From: Pseudodesulfovibrio alkaliphilus
GTDB taxonomy: Bacteria; Desulfobacterota; Desulfovibrionia; Desulfovibrionales; Desulfovibrionaceae
DNA length: 64,000 bases
Assembly (NCBI RefSeq): GCF_009729555.1
Contig: NZ_WODC01000002.1
Span: 186,001 to 250,000, forward strand
Reading direction: 5' to 3'
The translations under genes were made by a program, and so were the position numbers. Shown piece by piece: positions 42,108-51,667 of this stretch (within the stretch, counting starts at the first letter, position 1; each line of letters begins with the position of its first letter). Under the pieces are notes generated by a model. It was not told the DNA's origin. It did no database searches and worked only from the letters and a program-made list of their open reading frames with translations.

Positions 42108-43463
42108 ATGTTGTGCGCCATTCCTATTGAAATTAGCAATCGTGAACTCGACGGTGTGTTGTATCTGGCTTTGAAGCTCGTTCAACGCGGACTGCCCGTG
42201 ATGTTCGGCGAGCGTATGGTGACGCAATACGTCAAAAATAATAATGAACCTGTGCTGTATTTCGACATTGAGCAGTATGTTCCTATCAACCGAAAGGTCA
42301 TTGCCGATGGTGGCGCGGTTTTCAACCTGAATTCTGAAGGATTTGCATTTCTTTGCGATGAGAAGTTCATTAGTATATTTGAACATATCAGAGATGATGT
42401 CACGAAGATATTTCTCTGGGGAAAACGGCAGCGTGAGGTGGTGAGCAGGCAACTGCCCGACTTGATGCAGGATAGACTTGTGGTTTCGGGGCACCCGAGT
42501 TTCGATATGGCGCAAGAGCGTTTCGTGCCCTATTACAGAAACGAATCCATCCTGCAATGCCATGGTGAAGATTATATTCTTGTCAACGCTAACAGCGGCA
42601 TATTCAATCACGCAATGGGGCTGGAAAACTATCTCAAAATGATCCAGAAGATGGATGAATGGCAAATTTACAGGGATGAAGACTACCTGAAGTTCATCAG
42701 GACGCAATCGGAGTATCAGGAGAAAGTGGCCAACGGCATGCTTGAGCTGGTGGCCCATCTTGCCCGCGCTTTTCCCAAACGGCATGTCATCATTCGTCCC
42801 CACCCTACCGAGGGTATGGACTTCTATACAAAGCCGCTCAAGAGATACCCCAATGTGTTTGTGACCAACGAGGGTCGAGTTCGCGAATGGATCGCCAGCG
42901 CACGTGTCGTGGTTCATCACGACTGCACCACGAGCCTGGAGGCTCTACTTATGGGCAAGCCGGTTATCCAGTTCCGTCCTGTTTATGACGAGAGATTTAA
43001 TGACCCTCTGTTGGCAGGAATCGGCTTGGCTACAGGGAAAGTTGAGGAGGCGGAGGCAATTGTTCGAGACGGTGAGATGCCCGTGGGTCTGCGGGAGCGC
43101 CAGTTGGCGAATTTAGAGCCAAGTCTTGCCAATATCGGTTTTGTTGCAGCGGAAATGATTGCCGATCAGGCCGTAGATGTGGCTCGAGGCGTTGTCAATA
43201 CTTGGATTCCCGAACCGCTCGGTTTCTGGGGCAATGTCAAGTGCTGGCGAAAGCACCTGAGCAAGCAGCTGCGGGCTAGGCAGCCTGGAAGAAACGGGCG
43301 CAAGGTTCGCTATGCCCTAAGCAAGTTCCCGCGTCTGTCTTTGGATGCGGTGCAACTGCGCCTTGACAAACTGCGGGTCATTGAGCCGTCGTTGCCCGAG
43401 GTGGATGTAACGTCGCTGACCCTGAACACCTTCCTGATGCGGCCGCGCACCACCATGGATTAG
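42108..43463 (+). CDS. Surface carbohydrate biosynthesis protein (CDP-glycerol-transferase-like GT-B fold)
   Basis: 451 residues. The N-terminus (MLCAIPIEISNRELDGVLYLALKLVQRGLPVMFG) and the motifs RPHPTEGMDFY and VVHHDCTTSLEALLMGKPVIQF match the surface-polysaccharide family often found in nonulosonic-acid clusters. The HP and H-D-C-T-T-x-x-E elements resemble CDP-glycerophosphotransferases. Likely a transferase acting on the surface glycan. ATG 42108 with GAGG upstream. It is the only plus-strand gene inside the island, convergent with its right neighbour. Confidence 0.7.
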   Translation: MLCAIPIEISNRELDGVLYLALKLVQRGLPVMFGERMVTQYVKNNNEPVLYFDIEQYVPINRKVIADGGAVFNLNSEGFAFLCDEKFISIFEHIRDDVTKIFLWGKRQREVVSRQLPDLMQDRLVVSGHPSFDMAQERFVPYYRNESILQCHGEDYILVNANSGIFNHAMGLENYLKMIQKMDEWQIYRDEDYLKFIRTQSEYQEKVANGMLELVAHLARAFPKRHVIIRPHPTEGMDFYTKPLKRYPNVFVTNEGRVREWIASARVVVHHDCTTSLEALLMGKPVIQFRPVYDERFNDPLLAGIGLATGKVEEAEAIVRDGEMPVGLRERQLANLEPSLANIGFVAAEMIADQAVDVARGVVNTWIPEPLGFWGNVKCWRKHLSKQLRARQPGRNGRKVRYALSKFPRLSLDAVQLRLDKLRVIEPSLPEVDVTSLTLNTFLMRPRTTMD

Positions 43464-43762
43464 CTCTCAGGGTCGAGCCTTTCCAGCAGGAATACCACGG
43501 GCCGGTAGCCGTCGGTGCAGCAGGTGACGAACTGTTTGGGCCCTCCGCGGGACATGCCCCAGATCATCTTTTGCATGTCTGCCCACGCCCATCCGCAGAA
43601 ATCCTCGGGTTTATTCCATGGGGCTTGGGCGGGAATGGTAAAGGTCTGCCCCTCCTTGAACAACTGGCATGGTGTCCAGGAGTTCGGATTGTCGGTATAA
43701 TTTTTTACCAGATCCTCATGGAACAGTCGTTTGAGAACAGTGATTTTAACATCATGGAGCAT
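43460..43762 (-). CDS. TIGR04076-family small protein
   Basis: 100 residues. MLHDVKITVLKRLFHEDLVKNY, CQLFKEGQTF, PEDFCGWAWADMQKMIWGMSRGG and FVTCCTDGYRPVVFLLERL form the pattern of this uncharacterised family, which has conserved Cys residues. It directly follows the hisF-like gene (4-bp gap), so it is likely co-transcribed with the amidotransferase module. Its stop overlaps the convergent stop at 43461-43463. Confidence 0.75.
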   Translation of the reverse strand: MLHDVKITVLKRLFHEDLVKNYTDNPNSWTPCQLFKEGQTFTIPAQAPWNKPEDFCGWAWADMQKMIWGMSRGGPKQFVTCCTDGYRPVVFLLERLDPES

Positions 43763-43766
43763 GGTG

Positions 43767-44525
43767 TCAATCCTTTCGTACCGGGATGCCTGCCCGTCGA
43801 AGGATTGCTCTGCATTCGGCGGGAGTTTGTTCCGTGAAGTGAAAAATTGATGCGGCTGCTACGGCCGTGGCACCGCCATCCCGAATGGCTTCCAGCATGT
43901 GCTGCGGATTGCCGACACCACCAGACGCGATGACCGGAATGGAGACTGCGTTGCTGACGCGTGTCAAGGCATCAATGTCATAGCCTTGCATCGTGCCGTC
44001 CAGCTCGACCGAAGTGAGCAATATTTCTCCAGCCCCGTTCCCCTCGGCGATTTTTGCGAATTCCACGAGGTCTGTACCGCGTGGTTGTCGCCCGGAGTGG
44101 GTGACCACCTCAAGGAACCCGTTTTTTCTGGTGAAGTCGATGGACACGATGGCGCATTGGGAACCATACTTTTGGGCTACCTGTCTAATGAGGGTGGGGT
44201 TTTCAAATGCGGCGGTATTCATAGCAATTTTGTCTGCGCCTACGTCCAGTAGTTTGCCGACATGATCTACTTTTGAAACCCCGCCGCCCACCGTGAGGGG
44301 CATGAAGCATTCGTCCGCGAAGTCGTCCACCCATGCGAAGTCGGGGGGGCGGCCGTCGTCGGTGGCCCTGATGTCCACGATTAGTAGTTCGTCCACGTTG
44401 CGCATGTTGTAGACCTTGATGGATTGCATGAGCGATCCCACGTGCCGCCAACTGTCGAAGCCGACACCTTTGACCAAGCCGTAGTCCCGATAGAGGAGCG
44501 TTGGGATGATTCTGGTCTTGAGCAT
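43767..44525 (-). CDS. HisF-like protein of a sugar amidotransferase module
   Basis: 252 residues, a (beta-alpha)8 barrel of the HisF family. True HisF has catalytic Asp11 in P-C-L-D-V-K-D; here the same place reads PTLLYRD, so Asp11 is Leu. The second catalytic Asp (VSIDFTRKNG) remains. Cyclase activity is therefore improbable. Family knowledge (WbpG/HisH2/HisF2 and Pse/Leg clusters) says such proteins channel ammonia from the HisH-like glutaminase to an acetamidino-forming enzyme. No other his gene is nearby. It abuts the hisH-like gene with no gap. Confidence 0.88.
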   Translation of the reverse strand: MLKTRIIPTLLYRDYGLVKGVGFDSWRHVGSLMQSIKVYNMRNVDELLIVDIRATDDGRPPDFAWVDDFADECFMPLTVGGGVSKVDHVGKLLDVGADKIAMNTAAFENPTLIRQVAQKYGSQCAIVSIDFTRKNGFLEVVTHSGRQPRGTDLVEFAKIAEGNGAGEILLTSVELDGTMQGYDIDALTRVSNAVSIPVIASGGVGNPQHMLEAIRDGGATAVAAASIFHFTEQTPAECRAILRRAGIPVRKD

Positions 44526-45152
44526 TTAGAACTTCTCGCAGTAATGGATGAAGTTCCTAAGCAATCTCAAGCCGATCCCCTGGCTTTTTTCAGGATGAAA
44601 TTGCGTGCCGAAAATATTTTTATGGCGAACTGCTGATGTGAACTTGCCGCAGTAGCTGGTTTTTCCGAGAATGTTTGAAGGGCTATCCACGTCGAAATGA
44701 TAGCCGTGGACGAAGTAGAAATCCTCACCCGAAGGAATGCCGTCGAACAGAGGGTCTGAGCCATCGTGCTCCACACTGTTCCAACCTACATGAGGGATGC
44801 GTTCCTTGGCCGTGGGCTTCAATGGTTTCACCGTGCCGGGGATCCAGCCCAAGCCTTCGTGCTCGCCGAGCTCGAAGCTGCGCGATGCCAGCAGTTGCAT
44901 ACCGAGACAGACTCCAAGAATGGGTATGTCGTAAGCGATGATCTGGTCTTCGAGGATTGTGTCGAGATGTCTGGCACGCAGTAGTTTGATGGCGTCGCCG
45001 AAGGCTCCCACGCCGGGGAGGACGCATGCGTCGACCACCTTGAAGTCTTTCTCGCGGTCGGTGAGTAGCGGCTTGGCTCCGCAAACGGTCAGGGCGCGGG
45101 AGAGGGAATCGATGTTGCCTACGCCATAGTTCACGACTGCCACTGATATCAT
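44526..45152 (-). CDS. HisH-like glutamine amidotransferase of the sugar amidation module
   Basis: 208 residues, a class I glutaminase with nucleophile C82 (GVCLGMQ), H186 and E188 (QFHPEKSQ). It releases ammonia from glutamine, passed through the HisF-like barrel to the PP-loop amidotransferase encoded just upstream. The island context, not histidine biosynthesis, decides the role. Confidence 0.9.
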   Translation of the reverse strand: MISVAVVNYGVGNIDSLSRALTVCGAKPLLTDREKDFKVVDACVLPGVGAFGDAIKLLRARHLDTILEDQIIAYDIPILGVCLGMQLLASRSFELGEHEGLGWIPGTVKPLKPTAKERIPHVGWNSVEHDGSDPLFDGIPSGEDFYFVHGYHFDVDSPSNILGKTSYCGKFTSAVRHKNIFGTQFHPEKSQGIGLRLLRNFIHYCEKF

Positions 45153-45165
45153 GGTCGGGGCCGTT

Positions 45166-46326
45166 CTAGACGTTATCGTCGTTGAGTCGAATCAGATCGC
45201 CTTGACCGTCTCTGACGAGATTGCCGCGCCGGTCGACCTTGAATATTTTTTTGTTGGTGAAGCGGTCGCATACAGCCTTGAACTCATCCAACGTCATGCC
45301 GATCTCGTCCAGGATGGTAGCTAGGTCGCAGCCGAGGTATTTCCATGGGAATTTGCCCTCGTGCTTCTTGACGAGCTTGAGTCCCTGCTCGCGTGAGAGA
45401 CGGCCCCGGCGGATGTGCCAGCACGCCCAGTCGGTGGGGCGGCTGTAGCCATACTTCAGGAACTTGAAGTAGTCGTGGATGCGCATTTGCTGGTTGTCCA
45501 GGTTCTCGTAGTTAACGATGGAGCCTTCGACAATGGTCGGGTTGCTCTCGAACCCATGGGCAGCAGCAACCAGCGCGTTGGCCAAGCCGTCCCAGGGCTT
45601 GTAGTAGCCGAGGAAGATGCCCGTAACGCCCACGCGTGCCAGTTCTTCATCAGACGGGTACGTATAGGGGATGAGGTGCTTTTTCTCGATGCCTTCCTGA
45701 TCAACCAGGTCAGTCACGCGCAGGCCGAGCAGCCCGCCAAATTCTTCGAGCCACCTCCGAGTGAGGTTGGGATTCTCGGCGTCTGTGGCTGGCCCTCCAT
45801 TCTCGTTTTGCGAGTTCTCACCCCAGACAATGAGCGGGATGTTCATCTGCACGGCGATTCTTACCGGGATGGTGAAAATGGTCAGGTGTTCGGGCCAGGA
45901 GATGTCGCCCACCTGCTCAAGGCAGAGTTTGTTGATTTTGCGACGGATCACTGGGTTGGTGGTCACCTCGATGTAGTCGACCCCGAGGTTCTTAATATTT
46001 TCGATATTGCGGCGGCCAATGTCCGAGAGGCGGTCAGTGGTGGCTGTGACACACAGGGGGTTGAGCCCCATGTCCAGCATGGTCAGGGTCTGGAAGGTGG
46101 AGTCCTTGCCGCCACTGCACGGGATTACGCAGTCGTAGTTGCTGCCGTCTTTGGAGCGGTATTGTTCGACTATGGTCTCCAGCTCTTTCTTTCTGGCTTC
46201 CCAGTCGATTTCGTCCCGTTCGTCGAAGTATTTGCAGGCTGCACAGACGCCGTCCTCGTCAAACCACAGATCCGGTTTGGTTTCAGGCATAACACATTTG
46301 GTGCAATAGCGGATGGTGTTTGACAT
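45166..46326 (-). CDS. pseA: N-acetyl sugar amidotransferase (PseA/WbpG family)
   Basis: 386 residues. PP-loop ATP pyrophosphatase motif SGGKDST, an N-terminal zinc-like cluster (YCTKCVMPETKPDLWFDEDGVCAACK), and IVWGENSQNENGG. The family converts an N-acetyl group of a sugar into an acetamidino group, using ammonia from the HisH/HisF-like pair. In this operon the substrate is most likely pseudaminic acid or its precursor. Start 46326 with GAGAAAG upstream. PseA versus LegA-type specificity is inferred from the pse neighbours. Confidence 0.87.
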   Translation of the reverse strand: MSNTIRYCTKCVMPETKPDLWFDEDGVCAACKYFDERDEIDWEARKKELETIVEQYRSKDGSNYDCVIPCSGGKDSTFQTLTMLDMGLNPLCVTATTDRLSDIGRRNIENIKNLGVDYIEVTTNPVIRRKINKLCLEQVGDISWPEHLTIFTIPVRIAVQMNIPLIVWGENSQNENGGPATDAENPNLTRRWLEEFGGLLGLRVTDLVDQEGIEKKHLIPYTYPSDEELARVGVTGIFLGYYKPWDGLANALVAAAHGFESNPTIVEGSIVNYENLDNQQMRIHDYFKFLKYGYSRPTDWACWHIRRGRLSREQGLKLVKKHEGKFPWKYLGCDLATILDEIGMTLDEFKAVCDRFTNKKIFKVDRRGNLVRDGQGDLIRLNDDNV

Positions 46327-46357
46327 GGTCTTTCTCATCTTGGCTGTTTTATATTTA

Positions 46358-47383
46358 TTATGCGATGAGTTCCCAGGATAGGGGCGTACCCTTCCTGATG
46401 GCCGCCCGGGCCGTCTTGCCCAGGAGTTCTTCGTAGTGTCTTGGGTGCAGGCCGTGGCCTGGGCGAACGGACCGGACGTTGTCCGGGGTCAGCCGCTCAC
46501 CAGCCCCGATGTCGCGAGTCGCAAAGAGGGAACGGCGGAACACGGCGCTCGCCTTCTGCTTTTCGGTCAGTTCGAAGCAGACGGTGCCAAGGCCCTTTTC
46601 CACGTTGCGCACGCTACGGACCATGGCCGCGAACTCTTCGGGATCAAGGGAAAAAGCGGCGTCCGGCCCGCCGAGATCGCGAGAGAGGCAGAGGTGCTTC
46701 TCGATCACCCGGGCGCCCAGGGCCACGGCGGCGATAGGCATGTCGATGCCCAGGGTGTGATCGGACAGCCCGGCCACCACGCCAAAGCGCTCGGCCAGAT
46801 AGGGGATGGTCCTCAGGTTCATCTCCTCGGGCGGCGCGGGATAGGCCGAGGTACACTTGAGAAGGACCAGCTCGGTGCCGCCAGCGGTTCTGAAGGCCGC
46901 CACAGCTTCCTCGATCTCGGCCTCGCTGGCCATGCCTGTGGATAGGATTACCGGCTTACCCGTGGCCGCCACCTTCCTGATGAGAGGCAGGTCCACGATT
47001 TCGAAAGAGGCTATCTTGTGGCAGGCCACGTCCATCGCTTCCAGAAAGTCCACGGCGGTGAAGTCGAACGGGGTAGAGAAGAGCATCAATCCCAAGGAAT
47101 CGGCCACGGCCTTGAGTTTCGGCTGCCATTCCCAGGGGGTGTATGCCTCGCCGTACAGCTCGTGCAGGGTGCGCCCCTCCCAGATGGTTCCCTGGATGCG
47201 GAAGTATTCGTTGTCGCAGTCCAGGGTGATGGTGTCCGGCGTGTAGGTCTGGATCTTGACGGCGTCGGCCCCGGCGGCATGGGCCGCGTGGATGATCCTT
47301 ACTGCCTGGTCGTAATCCTGGCCGTGGTTGGCGCTCATCTCGGCGATGACGAGGACCGGGGTGTCCGGCGTGAAGAGTGGCAT
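46358..47383 (-). CDS. pseI: Pseudaminic acid synthase
   Basis: 341 residues, NeuB family. It condenses the 2,4-diacetamido-trideoxy-altrose hydrolysis product with phosphoenolpyruvate. VIAEMSANHGQDY and LFSTPFDFTAVDFLEAMDVACHKIASFEIVDLPLI are of the PseI subtype, GLSDHTLG is the metal/PEP region, and a C-terminal SAF (antifreeze-like) domain is present (RRSLFATRDIGAGERLTPDNVRSVRPG). It starts 17 bp after the fusion gene. Confidence 0.93.
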   Translation of the reverse strand: MPLFTPDTPVLVIAEMSANHGQDYDQAVRIIHAAHAAGADAVKIQTYTPDTITLDCDNEYFRIQGTIWEGRTLHELYGEAYTPWEWQPKLKAVADSLGLMLFSTPFDFTAVDFLEAMDVACHKIASFEIVDLPLIRKVAATGKPVILSTGMASEAEIEEAVAAFRTAGGTELVLLKCTSAYPAPPEEMNLRTIPYLAERFGVVAGLSDHTLGIDMPIAAVALGARVIEKHLCLSRDLGGPDAAFSLDPEEFAAMVRSVRNVEKGLGTVCFELTEKQKASAVFRRSLFATRDIGAGERLTPDNVRSVRPGHGLHPRHYEELLGKTARAAIRKGTPLSWELIA

Positions 47384-47400: not shown

Positions 47401-48870
47401 TCACAGTTCCAGGCGATGGTATTCGCCGCGTTCGTCCCAGATCGTTTTCACGAGCCTGAATCCCACCTTGGCGAACATGGAGAGAGATGCGGCATTGTCC
47501 GGCTTGACCCGGGCCACGGCCCTGGCCGATGGGACATTGCGGGCCAGCCACTGGCAGGCGAGCCGGGTCATGGCCGTGCCGATGCCGCGTCCGGTCCTGT
47601 CCGGGGCAGTGCTCAAGCTGACAAGGGCTTCGTCCCCGTCGAGATCGAAGCGGAATTGCCCGACAGGCGTTCCCTGGTCGTCCTCGGCGATGAACAGGTG
47701 GCAGGATGGCTCGTTAAGCTTGCCTGCGAACCACCGAGCATGGTCCTTGGGGGCGATCCGATCATTGGAGAAGGACTGCGCCCTGATGTCGGGGCGGTTT
47801 CGCCAGTCAAGGGTGCGCTGACAGTCATCCTGCGTGGCGGGACGCAGCCGGAGTCCGGTGCAGTAGAGGTGGTCCGCCACCCGCAACGCGCCGCAGCCGT
47901 CGATGGCCCGCATTCCGGCCTCGCTCATGACCTGCCGCCTGTCCGGAGCGTTCATGAGCATCGTCAATCTGGAGACAATGTTTTCCAACGCCCTGTTCGT
48001 GTCAAGGCAAATGGCGGCCCCGATCCCGTTCAGCCCGGTGCAGACGCTCTCCTGATTGTTGGCCGCTTGCAGGGCGAGCATGGGTACGCCCATGCGGCAG
48101 AGTTCCCAGCAGGTGGAGCCGGCGGCGGTCACGGCCAAGTCGGCCCAGGCCATCAACCCGGGCATGTCCCGGACATCGGTCAGCAGTTCCGTCGGGCAGG
48201 GGAGGGTGGTCATGTCGCCTCGGAGCCGGTCCAGGTGCGGGTTTGCGGCACCGGCCACCACCTTCACCCGGAGCGAATCGTCCTTGAGGGAGGCCATGGC
48301 CGCGAGCACGGCGCTGGTGAGGTTGCCCGGATCGGCTCCGCCCAGGGTGACGAGGATGTTCCAGGCCTTTTGCGGGGCCGGTGATTTGACCGGTCCCGTG
48401 GTGCGGAATTCCCGCCGCAGCAGCGTGAAGCGTGTGCCCAGAAGCAGGGCAGCGTCCGCGTTGATCTCGTATTGGTAGGCATCGGCCCCGTGGTTCTGGT
48501 TGAGCAGGGCGGTGGCGAAATAGGGGGCGCGGTCGCAGATGTCGTCCATGACCAGGGTGCGGAATCCGGCCCCGATCAGCGCCTGCTGGTAGGCGGAGTC
48601 GAAGTGGTAGCCGTCGATGGCCAGCCAGTCGCCCTTTCGCATGTGGGCAGAGACCAGGGCGAGGTCGTCGGGGGCCGGATGGGGGGCGTTTGGAGCAATG
48701 AAGTCGAATCCCTCGGCGCGGATGCGGTCTTCCAGTGCGCCGACAGAGCCGATGAGGCGGACTCTGCCGCCACGGTCCTGCCACGCCTGCCCCAGGGCAA
48801 TCATGCGCATGACGTGGCCAGTGCCCATGCTCGGCGAGCTGTCGGCGCGGATGGTGAGTGTGCCGATCAT
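47401..48870 (-). CDS. Fusion of PseG hydrolase and PseH-like N-acetyltransferase
   Basis: 489 residues. Residues 1-340 are the GT-B-like PseG nucleotide-sugar hydrolase with catalytic H19 in GTGHVMR, and GGADPGN and AAGSTCWELCRMGVP in the second half. Residues about 341-489 are a GNAT domain (LRLRPATQDDCQRTLDWRN ... DRTGRGIGTAMTRLA), standing in for PseH, which is absent elsewhere. The GNAT step precedes the hydrolase step in the pathway, so one polypeptide would perform two successive reactions. Overlaps pseF by 4 bp. Confidence 0.9.
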   Translation of the reverse strand: MIGTLTIRADSSPSMGTGHVMRMIALGQAWQDRGGRVRLIGSVGALEDRIRAEGFDFIAPNAPHPAPDDLALVSAHMRKGDWLAIDGYHFDSAYQQALIGAGFRTLVMDDICDRAPYFATALLNQNHGADAYQYEINADAALLLGTRFTLLRREFRTTGPVKSPAPQKAWNILVTLGGADPGNLTSAVLAAMASLKDDSLRVKVVAGAANPHLDRLRGDMTTLPCPTELLTDVRDMPGLMAWADLAVTAAGSTCWELCRMGVPMLALQAANNQESVCTGLNGIGAAICLDTNRALENIVSRLTMLMNAPDRRQVMSEAGMRAIDGCGALRVADHLYCTGLRLRPATQDDCQRTLDWRNRPDIRAQSFSNDRIAPKDHARWFAGKLNEPSCHLFIAEDDQGTPVGQFRFDLDGDEALVSLSTAPDRTGRGIGTAMTRLACQWLARNVPSARAVARVKPDNAASLSMFAKVGFRLVKTIWDERGEYHRLEL

Positions 48871-49559
48871 AATTCACCGATTTCCTTGAGGACTCGATAC
48901 ATGGTTTCGGCGCGCACCCAGTCCTCTTCGGTGTCAATGTCCTGTACCCGGTGGCGTGGGATGTGGACGCCTATGGCCTCTCCGTCCATGAATTCTTTGC
49001 CCGAGAGCAGAAAGGTGGCGTTCGCCCAGTAGAATTGGCCGCAGTCGTGAAATGCCTCGGGCAGATCCTGAGAGCGGGTCTGGCTGTGTTCGGGCCAGAG
49101 CAGAGACATGCGGCCGTTCTCGTTTCGGCTCAGGCCCCGTTGGATGGGGTAGGGGAAAGTCGTCACGGCGAATGAGGCCGGGGCCATGGTCAGCGCTGCA
49201 TGGCCTTGGATGAGGTCGCGAGGCAGGATGAACGGGGCGGTGGCGTACAAGCCGCAAACAGCCTCGACCTTTCGCCCGTTGTCCAGGCACCATTCAAGCG
49301 CGTGACGAAGGACAGGTGTAGTACCAGTAAAATTGTCAGCCAGATGGGAAGGGCGGGTAAATGGAGTCTCAGCGCCATAGGTACGAGCAATCTCGGCAAT
49401 GGTTTCGTCATCAGTGGAAACGATGATTGAGTCAAACAGGCCGGTCGCCAGTGCTGTCTTGATGGAATACGCGATGATCGGCTTGCCGCAAAAGTCCCGG
49501 ATGTTCTTGCGGGGAATGCGCTTGGAGCCGCCACGAGCCGGGATCACGGCAATGATCAT
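48867..49559 (-). CDS. pseF: CMP-pseudaminic acid cytidylyltransferase
   Basis: 230 residues. CTP-binding signature IPARGGSKRIPRKNIRDFCGKPIIAYSI, then VSTDDETIAEIARTYGAETPFTRP. It activates pseudaminic acid to the CMP form used by glycosyltransferases. Overlaps pseC and the pseG fusion by 4 bp each, implying translational coupling. Confidence 0.93.
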   Translation of the reverse strand: MIIAVIPARGGSKRIPRKNIRDFCGKPIIAYSIKTALATGLFDSIIVSTDDETIAEIARTYGAETPFTRPSHLADNFTGTTPVLRHALEWCLDNGRKVEAVCGLYATAPFILPRDLIQGHAALTMAPASFAVTTFPYPIQRGLSRNENGRMSLLWPEHSQTRSQDLPEAFHDCGQFYWANATFLLSGKEFMDGEAIGVHIPRHRVQDIDTEEDWVRAETMYRVLKEIGEL

Positions 49560-50671
49560 GCAAGCTCCAGCATGGTTTTGACAACGTGTTCCTTATCGCC
49601 AGCGGTCATGGTTGGGAACATGGGGATCGAAAGAATTTGCCGGTACGCTTCTTCCGCCACCGGGCACAACCCCTCGCCGGTTCCCAGGGTGCTGCGGTAG
49701 TAGGGGTGCAGGTGAACAGGAATGTAGTGCACCTGCGCACCGATGCCCGCCGCCCGGATTTCGGTGAAGACACGGTCGCGATCAGATATGCGGACCACAT
49801 AGAGATGGTAGGCGTGTTCTACACCCTCGCGCACAGCGAGGGGGCGGACCGGAGTTCCCGCAAACTGATTGTCGTAAAAGGCCGCGATCTCGCGCCGCCG
49901 GGCCAGAAATTCCGGTAGTCTGCGCATCTGGCTGGTGCCCAGTGCCGCCTGGATGTCGGTCAGGCGGTAGTTGTAGCCAAGGTCGGTCATTTCGTAGAAC
50001 CACTGGCCCGTCTCCTCGCGGGAGCGGGCGTCCGTGGTGATGCCGTGGTTGCGAAAGAGGCGCAGGCGTTGGTCGAAGTCGTCACGGTCGGTCATTATCA
50101 TGCCGCCTTCGCCCGTGGTCACATGCTTGACGGGGTGGAAGGAAAAGACGGTCATGTCGGCCAGGGTGCCCACTTTACGGCTGTCAATGGACGCTCCGAT
50201 GGCGTGGCAGCCATCAGCCACCAGGGAGAGTCCGCGCTCATCCGCAAGTTTGCGCAAGGCGTCCCAATCGCCGGGCTGCCCGGCGTAGTCCACGCCTATT
50301 ATCGCTCTGGTCCTGGTGGTGATCCGCTCCCTGACCCTGTCGGGATTGATGAGCAGGGTATCCGGGCAGACATCGGCGAATACCGGGGTGGCCCCCATGT
50401 ACAGCACGCAGTTGGCCGTGGCCGCAAAGGTCATGGGCGGGAGGACGACCTCGTCGCCGGGGCCGATGCCCAAGGCGAACATGGCGGCGTGCAGGGCGGC
50501 GGTGCCGTTGGCCACGGCCACGCCATAACGTGCGCCACAGTAAGCGGCCACAGCGGACTCGAATTCAGGCACCCGGGGGCCCGTGGTGAGGAAGTCGGAC
50601 TTCAAGGCCTCGGTCACGGCCTGGATGTCGTCTTCAGTTATGGACTGTTTGCCGTATGGAATCTTGCGCAT
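49556..50671 (-). CDS. pseC: UDP-4-amino-4,6-dideoxy-N-acetyl-beta-L-altrosamine transaminase
   Basis: 371 residues, DegT/DnrJ/EryC1 aminotransferase. MRKIPYGKQSITEDDIQAVTEAL and SDFLTTGPRVPEFE are typical PseC openings; the PLP lysine lies in SFHPVKHVTTGEGG. It aminates the 4-keto sugar made by PseB. It is 9 bp downstream of pseB. Confidence 0.94.
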   Translation of the reverse strand: MRKIPYGKQSITEDDIQAVTEALKSDFLTTGPRVPEFESAVAAYCGARYGVAVANGTAALHAAMFALGIGPGDEVVLPPMTFAATANCVLYMGATPVFADVCPDTLLINPDRVRERITTRTRAIIGVDYAGQPGDWDALRKLADERGLSLVADGCHAIGASIDSRKVGTLADMTVFSFHPVKHVTTGEGGMIMTDRDDFDQRLRLFRNHGITTDARSREETGQWFYEMTDLGYNYRLTDIQAALGTSQMRRLPEFLARRREIAAFYDNQFAGTPVRPLAVREGVEHAYHLYVVRISDRDRVFTEIRAAGIGAQVHYIPVHLHPYYRSTLGTGEGLCPVAEEAYRQILSIPMFPTMTAGDKEHVVKTMLELA

Positions 50672-50680
50672 GAGGTTACT

Positions 50681-51667
50681 TTACAGCGAGAAGCCCTGCT
50701 GAACAAGGATTGCTCTCAGTTCCTCGACGCTTATCCACATGTCGTTGGTGTCGGAGCTGTAGGCGAAGCCCTCGGGGACGCGGCGCATGTTGGAAGCGTT
50801 TCCTTGGTAATCGAAGACCCCGGTATCGGGCAGGATGACGTAGCCCCTGTCGTTCATGACCACATTGCGCGAGTCCTCGGCCGGAATCATGCATTCGTGA
50901 AGTTTTTCTCCCGGACGGATGCCCACAACCTCGGTCTTGCAGCCAGGGGCGATGGCCTCGGCCAAGTCGGTGATCTTCATGCTCGGGATGCGTGGGACGA
51001 ATATTTCGCCGCCCGCTGCATGCTCGATGGCGTCGAGAACCATCTGGACGCCCTCGTCCAGGGTGATCCAGAACCTGGTCATGCGCGGGTCGGTGATGGG
51101 CAGGACGCCTTCCTGGCGTTTTTTCAAAAAGAAGGGGACCACGCTGCCCCGGCTGCCCAGGACATTGCCGTAGCGAACCACCGAGTATTTTGGCCCAACG
51201 GCAAAGCCGTTGGCCGCCACGAAAAGCTTGTCCGAGGCGAGCTTGGTGGCACCGTAGAGGTTGCACGGAGCCACGGCCTTATCTGTCGATAGGGCCACAA
51301 TCTTTTCCACGCCGACGTCGGCGGCCACGTTGATGAGGTTCTGCGCCCCGTTGATGTTGGTCTTGATGGCTTCGGTGGGGTTGTATTCCGAGGCCGGAAC
51401 CTGCTTCATGGCTGCGGCATGAACTATGATCTCCACGTCACGGCAGGCGCGGTAGAGCCTTTCCTTGTCGCGCACATCGCCGATGAAGAAGCGAAGCGCC
51501 CCAAATTTACCCGGTGGAAAGTCTTGGGCCATTTCAAACTGTTTGAGTTCGTCGCGGCTGAAGACGATAAGTTTTTTCGGCTTGTACCGTTCCAAGACGA
51601 TCTGCACGAAGCGTTTTCCGAAGGAGCCGGTGCCTCCGGTGATCAGAATTGTTTTTCCGTCAAGCAT
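50681..51667 (-). CDS. pseB: UDP-N-acetylglucosamine 4,6-dehydratase (inverting)
   Basis: 328 residues. Rossmann motif GGTGSFG, then AAMKQVPASEYNP, the PseB-type active site in which Met-Lys replaces the usual Tyr-x3-Lys. It catalyses the first committed step to pseudaminic acid, with C5 inversion. First gene of the pse operon, with its own strong promoter 90 bp upstream. Confidence 0.95.
   Translation of the reverse strand: MLDGKTILITGGTGSFGKRFVQIVLERYKPKKLIVFSRDELKQFEMAQDFPPGKFGALRFFIGDVRDKERLYRACRDVEIIVHAAAMKQVPASEYNPTEAIKTNINGAQNLINVAADVGVEKIVALSTDKAVAPCNLYGATKLASDKLFVAANGFAVGPKYSVVRYGNVLGSRGSVVPFFLKKRQEGVLPITDPRMTRFWITLDEGVQMVLDAIEHAAGGEIFVPRIPSMKITDLAEAIAPGCKTEVVGIRPGEKLHECMIPAEDSRNVVMNDRGYVILPDTGVFDYQGNASNMRRVPEGFAYSSDTNDMWISVEELRAILVQQGFSL

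Follow-up and report, generated by a model that had tools for sequence, protein, structure and literature searches.

Sugar amidotransferases of the PseA (Campylobacter)/WbuX/WbpG kind, including LpNASAT (PDB 8wex), combine a four-cysteine site with a PP-loop and belong to nonulosonate clusters. HisF-fold proteins of the WbuZ (TIGR03572) and AglZ/HisF2 (NF038364) families adjoin WbuX and a HisH homologue, and both this kind of trio (WbuX/Y/Z, AglZ/HisF2) and the idea that its pair aids amidination are already recorded in family databases. The pair in turn is like the HisF-HisH bienzyme imidazole glycerol phosphate (IGP) synthase in fold, gate residues, and glutaminase triad. Here we analyzed such a trio, a WbuX/PseA-family amidotransferase, a HisH-like glutaminase, and a HisF-like barrel, in a 64,000-nucleotide stretch of Pseudodesulfovibrio alkaliphilus (GCF_009729555.1, contig NZ_WODC01000002.1, positions 186,001 to 250,000), hereafter the window. 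With a probability of about 0.75, we propose from sequence comparisons that the pair makes ammonia and passes it to WbuX, which would amidate a pseudaminic acid sugar, and that the barrel is a dedicated conduit without cyclase catalysis.

The window WbuX scores 332.9 bits against TIGR03573 (NCBIfam cut-off 203.2) and carries C12, C15, C32, and C35 together with SGGKDS at residues 75–80; a tetracysteine site and an SGGXDS PP-loop are named as WbuX family features in an excerpt of the structural literature (PMC10607449). The initial annotation had called this protein PseA/WbpG, and we keep amidotransferase but assign it to the TIGR03573 WbuX/PseA family. Compared with the described members, it is of the pseudaminic-cluster type, and relatives of 60–73% identity come from records whose titles name Chloroflexi, Cyanobacteria, Clostridium, Vibrio, and archaeal bins. 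The glutaminase scores 214.5 bits against TIGR01855 (HisH; cut-off 105.4) and has the Cys-His-Glu triad, as first read from the sequence. The barrel falls below all three curated cut-offs, with 274.7 vs 299.7 bits for WbuZ/TIGR03572, 254.3 vs 310 for AglZ/HisF2/NF038364, and 246.1 vs 294.55 for HisF/TIGR00735. In a gap-free alignment with HisF-LUCA, the catalytic D11 is replaced by Leu, just as initially noticed, while Asp is kept at 130, so that one of the two HisF acids is missing. Its AlphaFold model (predicted local distance difference test, pLDDT, 95.1) matches HisF structures at Z 34–36, the top solved match being HisF-LUCA itself (4evz; Z 36.4, root-mean-square deviation 1.8 over 246 residues).

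The window HisH/HisF-like pair is not a spare histidine pair. The earlier proposal that it does not serve histidine synthesis depended on these not being the only hisH and hisF in the genome, and a separate canonical hisF (354.2 bits, cut-off 294.55) adjoins hisH at C2:341721-343113 of the 3.22 Mb, 99.99% complete assembly. HisA is also present elsewhere. The window pair therefore differs from IGP synthase in its missing D11, in its operon, and in having the canonical pair elsewhere in the same genome. The arrangement agrees with that of a WbuX-Y-Z trio, in which WbuX, HisH-like, and HisF-like genes share a saccharide cluster while a separate HisF is encoded elsewhere. A second full WbuX-HisH-HisF trio lies at C4:148786-151225 (locus L014, 9224-12131), and its barrel, unlike that of the window, passes the AglZ/HisF2 cut-off at 333.5 bits. 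Genes for an asparagine synthase-like protein, a PseC-like aminotransferase, and a PseF-like cytidylyltransferase lie close to the L014 trio.

We scanned 348 genomes of the class (Desulfovibrionia), fetched the loci with WbuX over the cut-off, found in 65 of the genomes, and added the window and L014. With partners counted within 3.5 kb on the same strand, 62 of the 86 class WbuX genes have both, one has the glutaminase only, and 23 have neither; score filters were at least 90 bits for barrel and glutaminase and at least 120 bits for WbuX. A cross-phylum set comprised the best 80 loci from a scan of named genomes (47–86% identity to the window WbuX), with records titled Cyanobacteria, Chloroflexi, Clostridium, Vibrio, Pseudomonas, archaeal bins, and others. 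Both partners are near 72 of its 85 WbuX genes (L192, on the same contig as L077, included), though the set was found by window-type patterns and hence is no random sample. The three genes occur together much more often than chance would allow, and they do so in varying order (XHF, FHX, HFX, and XFH, for WbuX, HisH-like, and HisF-like). A divergent WbuX-like set with an SGGVDS motif and no pair nearby (L109, L113, L114, L116, and L117) belongs entirely to genus g18 of the class.

The barrels show what has been kept and what has been lost. We compared 130 distinct WbuX-adjacent barrels (identical copies and those under 200 amino acids dropped) with 60 true HisF proteins; barrels nearest to no WbuX, such as the first L057 barrel (D-E, gate kept), fall outside the 130. 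Four positions that we take to be the ammonia gate of IGP synthase are nearly invariant, with R5, E46, and E167 in 130/130 and K99 in 129/130. The cyclase acids are not: D11 is kept in 22/130 and D130 in 110/130, and at least one is changed in 127/130. The residues at positions 11 and 130 are L-D in 91 barrels, D-E in 19, T-D in five, F-D and Q-D in four each, D-D in three, V-D in two, and P-D and L-S in one each. According to an excerpt of PMC11350729, the HisF reaction is catalyzed by two aspartates, D11 and D130. Because the acids have changed by two routes, through loss of D11 or substitution of D130 by Glu, two or more separate losses must have occurred if both acids were ancestral. Class barrels alone (n = 60; D11 kept in 22, D130 in 40) also show acid losses, so the pattern is independent of the targeted set. 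The glutaminase triad, meanwhile, is kept in 126/126 aligned relatives.

HisA, a sister barrel without an ammonia tunnel, gives the mirror image. HisA (30 sequences) was aligned with 20 true HisF sequences and a subset of 44 from the 130 barrels. All 30 HisA sequences keep both acids but carry an aromatic residue in place of E46, Phe in place of E167, and Arg in place of K99, with nothing aligned to R5. The gate residues are thus not simply a requirement of the fold. True HisF has 71 conserved positions, and 16 of them, all four gate positions included, are retained in at least 98% of the barrels (hypergeometric P = 0.0019, in a test that treats positions as independent although the barrels are related by descent).

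Besides this relatedness, several points, both here and in the gene neighborhoods below, weigh against a pure conduit. The barrels were gathered with a hidden Markov model seeded on two gate-bearing proteins, and the gate role of R5, E46, K99, and E167 is our assumption; no statement of it was found in the open-licence literature. The phosphate site is also well preserved (G177 in 129, G203 in 130, and N103 in 124 of the 130 barrels, with F23 of loop 1 largely kept), which might point to a ligand or activity that persists; HisA has G177 and G203 in common with the barrels but not N103. The barrel may still be an enzyme, with a cyclase or other phosphosugar activity using changed catalytic residues and possibly still producing histidine intermediates. 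Retention of D130 fits this idea, as do the three barrels (L067, L068, and L069 only) that keep both acids and the closeness of the D-E and D-D barrels to true HisF in our trees. We nevertheless consider it very improbable, as D11 is changed in 108/130 barrels and D130 is Glu in a further 19, these being the catalytic aspartates in the source excerpted above, and the genome has its canonical hisH/hisF pair. The D-E and D-D barrels, being nearer true HisF, may be a separate case.

In a tree of the 130 barrels and 15 true HisF, the window barrel is among 62 L-D barrels, nearly all from the window-type WbuX set (branch support 92). A smaller tree of 87 rows (every third true HisF and every third L-D barrel, with three long rows dropped) separates true HisF from the other rows at a branch with support 87/63 and groups true HisF, D-E, and D-D barrels at 99/94. 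This 87-row tree neither shows nor rejects a single origin of the WbuX barrels.

Fusions and pairing bear on the proposed coupling of the three proteins. Barrel and WbuX form single open reading frames without internal stops in five genomes. Three are from the class (3/348 genomes): L102 with 681 amino acids, L092 with 689, and L099 with 788, the last including a doubtful N-terminal extension. The other two, L289 (690 amino acids) and L290 (683 amino acids), represent two other families of the phylum (2/395 genomes drawn), and in their fused barrels position 11 is Leu and the gate is intact at all four positions. These two fusions share a junction pattern and are probably of common origin. Barrel and glutaminase are also fused in L057 (4374-5918) and L072 (4378-5910), with the barrel first, which is the reverse of the solved HisHF fusion 1jvn, where HisH comes first. 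Over 126 trios, distances correlate at 0.74 for WbuX and barrel and 0.70 for barrel and glutaminase. When two trios could be compared, 15 times within one genome and twice within one named locus, the adjacent partner beat the swapped one in 17/17 cases, both for WbuX-barrel and for barrel-glutaminase. This test dropped glutaminases under 170 amino acids, WbuX under 330 amino acids, L192, and the second WbuX sharing a barrel (L057, L090, and L093). Three barrels had been counted for two WbuX each: those of L090 and L093 because there are two WbuX per pair, and that of L057 because the nearest-gene rule took the other trio's barrel. With the upstream L057 barrel and glutaminase, adjacent pairing still wins. 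The trios stay together as sets. Physical coupling would explain this, and so would cassette inheritance. Genetic evidence comes from a freshwater Sphingomonas, in which transposon insertions in one polysaccharide cluster altered colony form whether they hit the gene for WbuX (12), HisF2 (10), or HisH (9), as described in an excerpt of PMC11340318.

The pair might instead be a general ammonia generator that sets ammonia free in the vicinity of WbuX instead of channeling it there directly. Of 171 WbuX genes, 32 have neither partner on their own strand within 3.5 kb. Three of these (L105, L248, and L258) are truncated by a contig end, another five have one flank shorter than 3.5 kb, and the remaining 24 have longer flanks on both sides. 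Hence some WbuX may not need the pair, the pair may be encoded elsewhere, or WbuX may use free ammonium. The over-cut-off WbuX of L115, removed by the score filters, is also unpaired, and counting it turns 62/86 into 62/87. One HisH-HisF pair is flanked by two WbuX genes in L090 and L093, and the distance correlation between WbuX and glutaminase is weaker, at 0.54. The TIGR03572 family description reportedly treats WbuY and WbuZ as dispensable for WbuX activity. Free ammonia would not, however, account readily for the barrel-WbuX fusions in five genomes, for the dedicated pairing in 17/17 comparisons, or for L077 and L078, where two full trios stand side by side although one source would do. 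We think this alternative unlikely and prefer the dedicated conduit.

The trio closes a compact minus-strand pseudaminic acid operon that runs PseB, PseC, PseF, a PseG-PseH fusion, PseI, WbuX, HisH-like, HisF-like, and TIGR04076 (Table 1). The pair does lie between the amidotransferase and the TIGR04076 gene, as the initial annotation had it, in abutting open frames: the gaps between the WbuX, HisH-like, HisF-like, and TIGR04076 genes are 13, 0, and 4 bases. The end first given for the feature, 46326, falls on a Met codon inside the WbuX open reading frame and in phase with it.

Table 1 Genes of the pseudaminic acid operon and the amidotransferase trio in the window.
Feature	Coordinates	Strand	Remarks
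WbuX/PseA N-acetyl sugar amidotransferase	45166-46338	-	390 amino acids; CxxC...CxxC zinc-type site, SGGKDS PP-loop; PDB 8wex relative
HisH-like glutaminase	44526-45152	-	208 amino acids; triad C82-H186-E188 and PGVG strand kept
HisF-like (beta/alpha)8 barrel	43767-44525	-	252 amino acids; Leu at D11; D130, R5, E46, K99, E167 kept
TIGR04076 family protein	43460-43762	-	100 amino acids; 4 bases downstream of barrel gene
PseI pseudaminic acid synthase	46358-47383	-	TIGR03586 485.3 bits; start at internal Met 47383 inferred, mechanical open reading frame to 47551
PseG-PseH fusion	47401-48870	-	nucleotide hydrolase and N-acetyltransferase-like domain; PseH match 38.2 bits, below curated cut-off 93.1
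PseF CMP-pseudaminic acid synthetase	48867-49559	-	
PseC aminotransferase	49556-50671	-	
PseB UDP-GlcNAc 4,6-dehydratase	50681-51667	-	

Given the full gene set for CMP-pseudaminic acid, an acetamidino-nonulosonate would be the natural product. Such sugars are known, with Pse5Am7Ac appearing in excerpts of PMC3068675 and PMC3958885 and Pse5Ac7Am in one of PMC13317340. The latter excerpt lists Clostridium drakei as encoding genes for Pse5Ac7Am, an acetamidino pseudaminic derivative, and this species is locus L212 of our cross-phylum set. The "surface sugar" of the initial annotation can accordingly be narrowed: sugar modification stands, in the more specific context of pseudaminic acid. It is possible in principle that the operon makes unmodified pseudaminic acid while the trio acts on another sugar. 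The genome has its second trio elsewhere, several sugars serve as substrates for the WbuX family (PMC10607449, excerpt), and a PseI-like or PseB-like gene on the same strand and no more than 9 kb away accompanies just 37/86 class WbuX, which indicates that the trio also serves other sugars. For the window, however, WbuX directly follows PseI in one tight gene run, and 62/85 of the window-type set have such a PseI-like or PseB-like neighbor, so we judge a different substrate distinctly unlikely and retain the pseudaminic acid sugar. As for the carrier, the genome has two matches to PF01973 on another contig, a family that presumably covers Maf-type proteins, and these would fit flagellin. The operon is surrounded by family 9 and group 1 glycosyltransferases and TIGR04396, which would fit an envelope glycan.

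The TIGR04076 gene, whose product scores 54.9 bits against a cut-off of 33, is probably co-transcribed with the barrel gene. It had been offered as context for the function of the pair; the adjacency is real, but functional relevance did not hold up. We rejected it as a functional partner, since it adjoins the trio at only 4/86 class WbuX (the window, L077, L078, and L088), all from the genus of the window, and the adjacency looks incidental. The family occurs in 13 of 100 drawn class genomes. In two of these (G000 and G299) the copies are the trio-linked ones, and in the other 11 the listed TIGR04076 places are not beside an over-cut-off WbuX. A model from a two-sequence alignment (pLDDT 76.4) gave no Foldseek match with E < 0.001. 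Cys and Trp residues are common to the five compared copies, one of them from L192. In the close relatives L077 (5950-11531) and L078 (5986-12608), two full WbuX-HisH-HisF trios occupy one pse cluster with the TIGR04076 gene last. The window and L088 have the first trio only, followed directly by TIGR04076, so the second trio has been lost or gained.

In the mechanism that we propose, the HisH-like protein would hydrolyze glutamine, and the ammonia would enter the HisF-like barrel through the charged gate as in IGP synthase, cross the barrel, and emerge from the opposite, C-terminal face into the active site of WbuX/PseA, where ATP would activate an N-acetyl group of a pseudaminic acid intermediate, either free or CMP-linked, which would become an acetamidino group; WbuX is a PP-loop enzyme thought to convert ATP to AMP and pyrophosphate (PMC10607449, excerpt). 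The product would be acetamidino-pseudaminic acid or a close derivative. The barrel itself, without cyclase catalysis, would be a conduit physically coupled to its own WbuX. We infer complex formation, ammonia passage, the ATP chemistry on a pseudaminic substrate, and the final glycan from sequence and gene context. The initial proposal of an ammonia source for acetamidino formation rather than for histidine gains support from the pse operon, the triad in 126/126, and the changed acids in 127/130, while ammonia supply itself is likewise a step that the pair would perform. More tentatively, the barrels might be ex-cyclases, with at least two losses, that have turned into gated ammonia valves and dock on WbuX in a three-protein relay. 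Since many phosphate-site and loop-1 residues persist, such a valve might sense a phosphorylated ligand (ATP or CMP-sugar), so that the glutaminase is on only with a loaded WbuX.

The pattern of kept gate and lost acids with its HisA mirror, the barrel-WbuX fusions, and the 17/17 pairing were not found in the open-licence literature, nor was any statement there on a WbuX-HisF fusion, an ammonia tunnel, or the ammonia source of PseA. The paper on the WbuX crystal structure names neither HisH nor HisF in its main text (PMC10607449). The trio bears on how acetamidino sugars on flagella and lipopolysaccharide obtain their nitrogen, and hisF and hisH labels in such sugar clusters mislead annotators. 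The natural barrel-WbuX fusions make a relay directly testable with one polypeptide and a glutaminase. In these clusters a textbook bienzyme appears to have lost its chemistry but retained the entrance to its ammonia tunnel.

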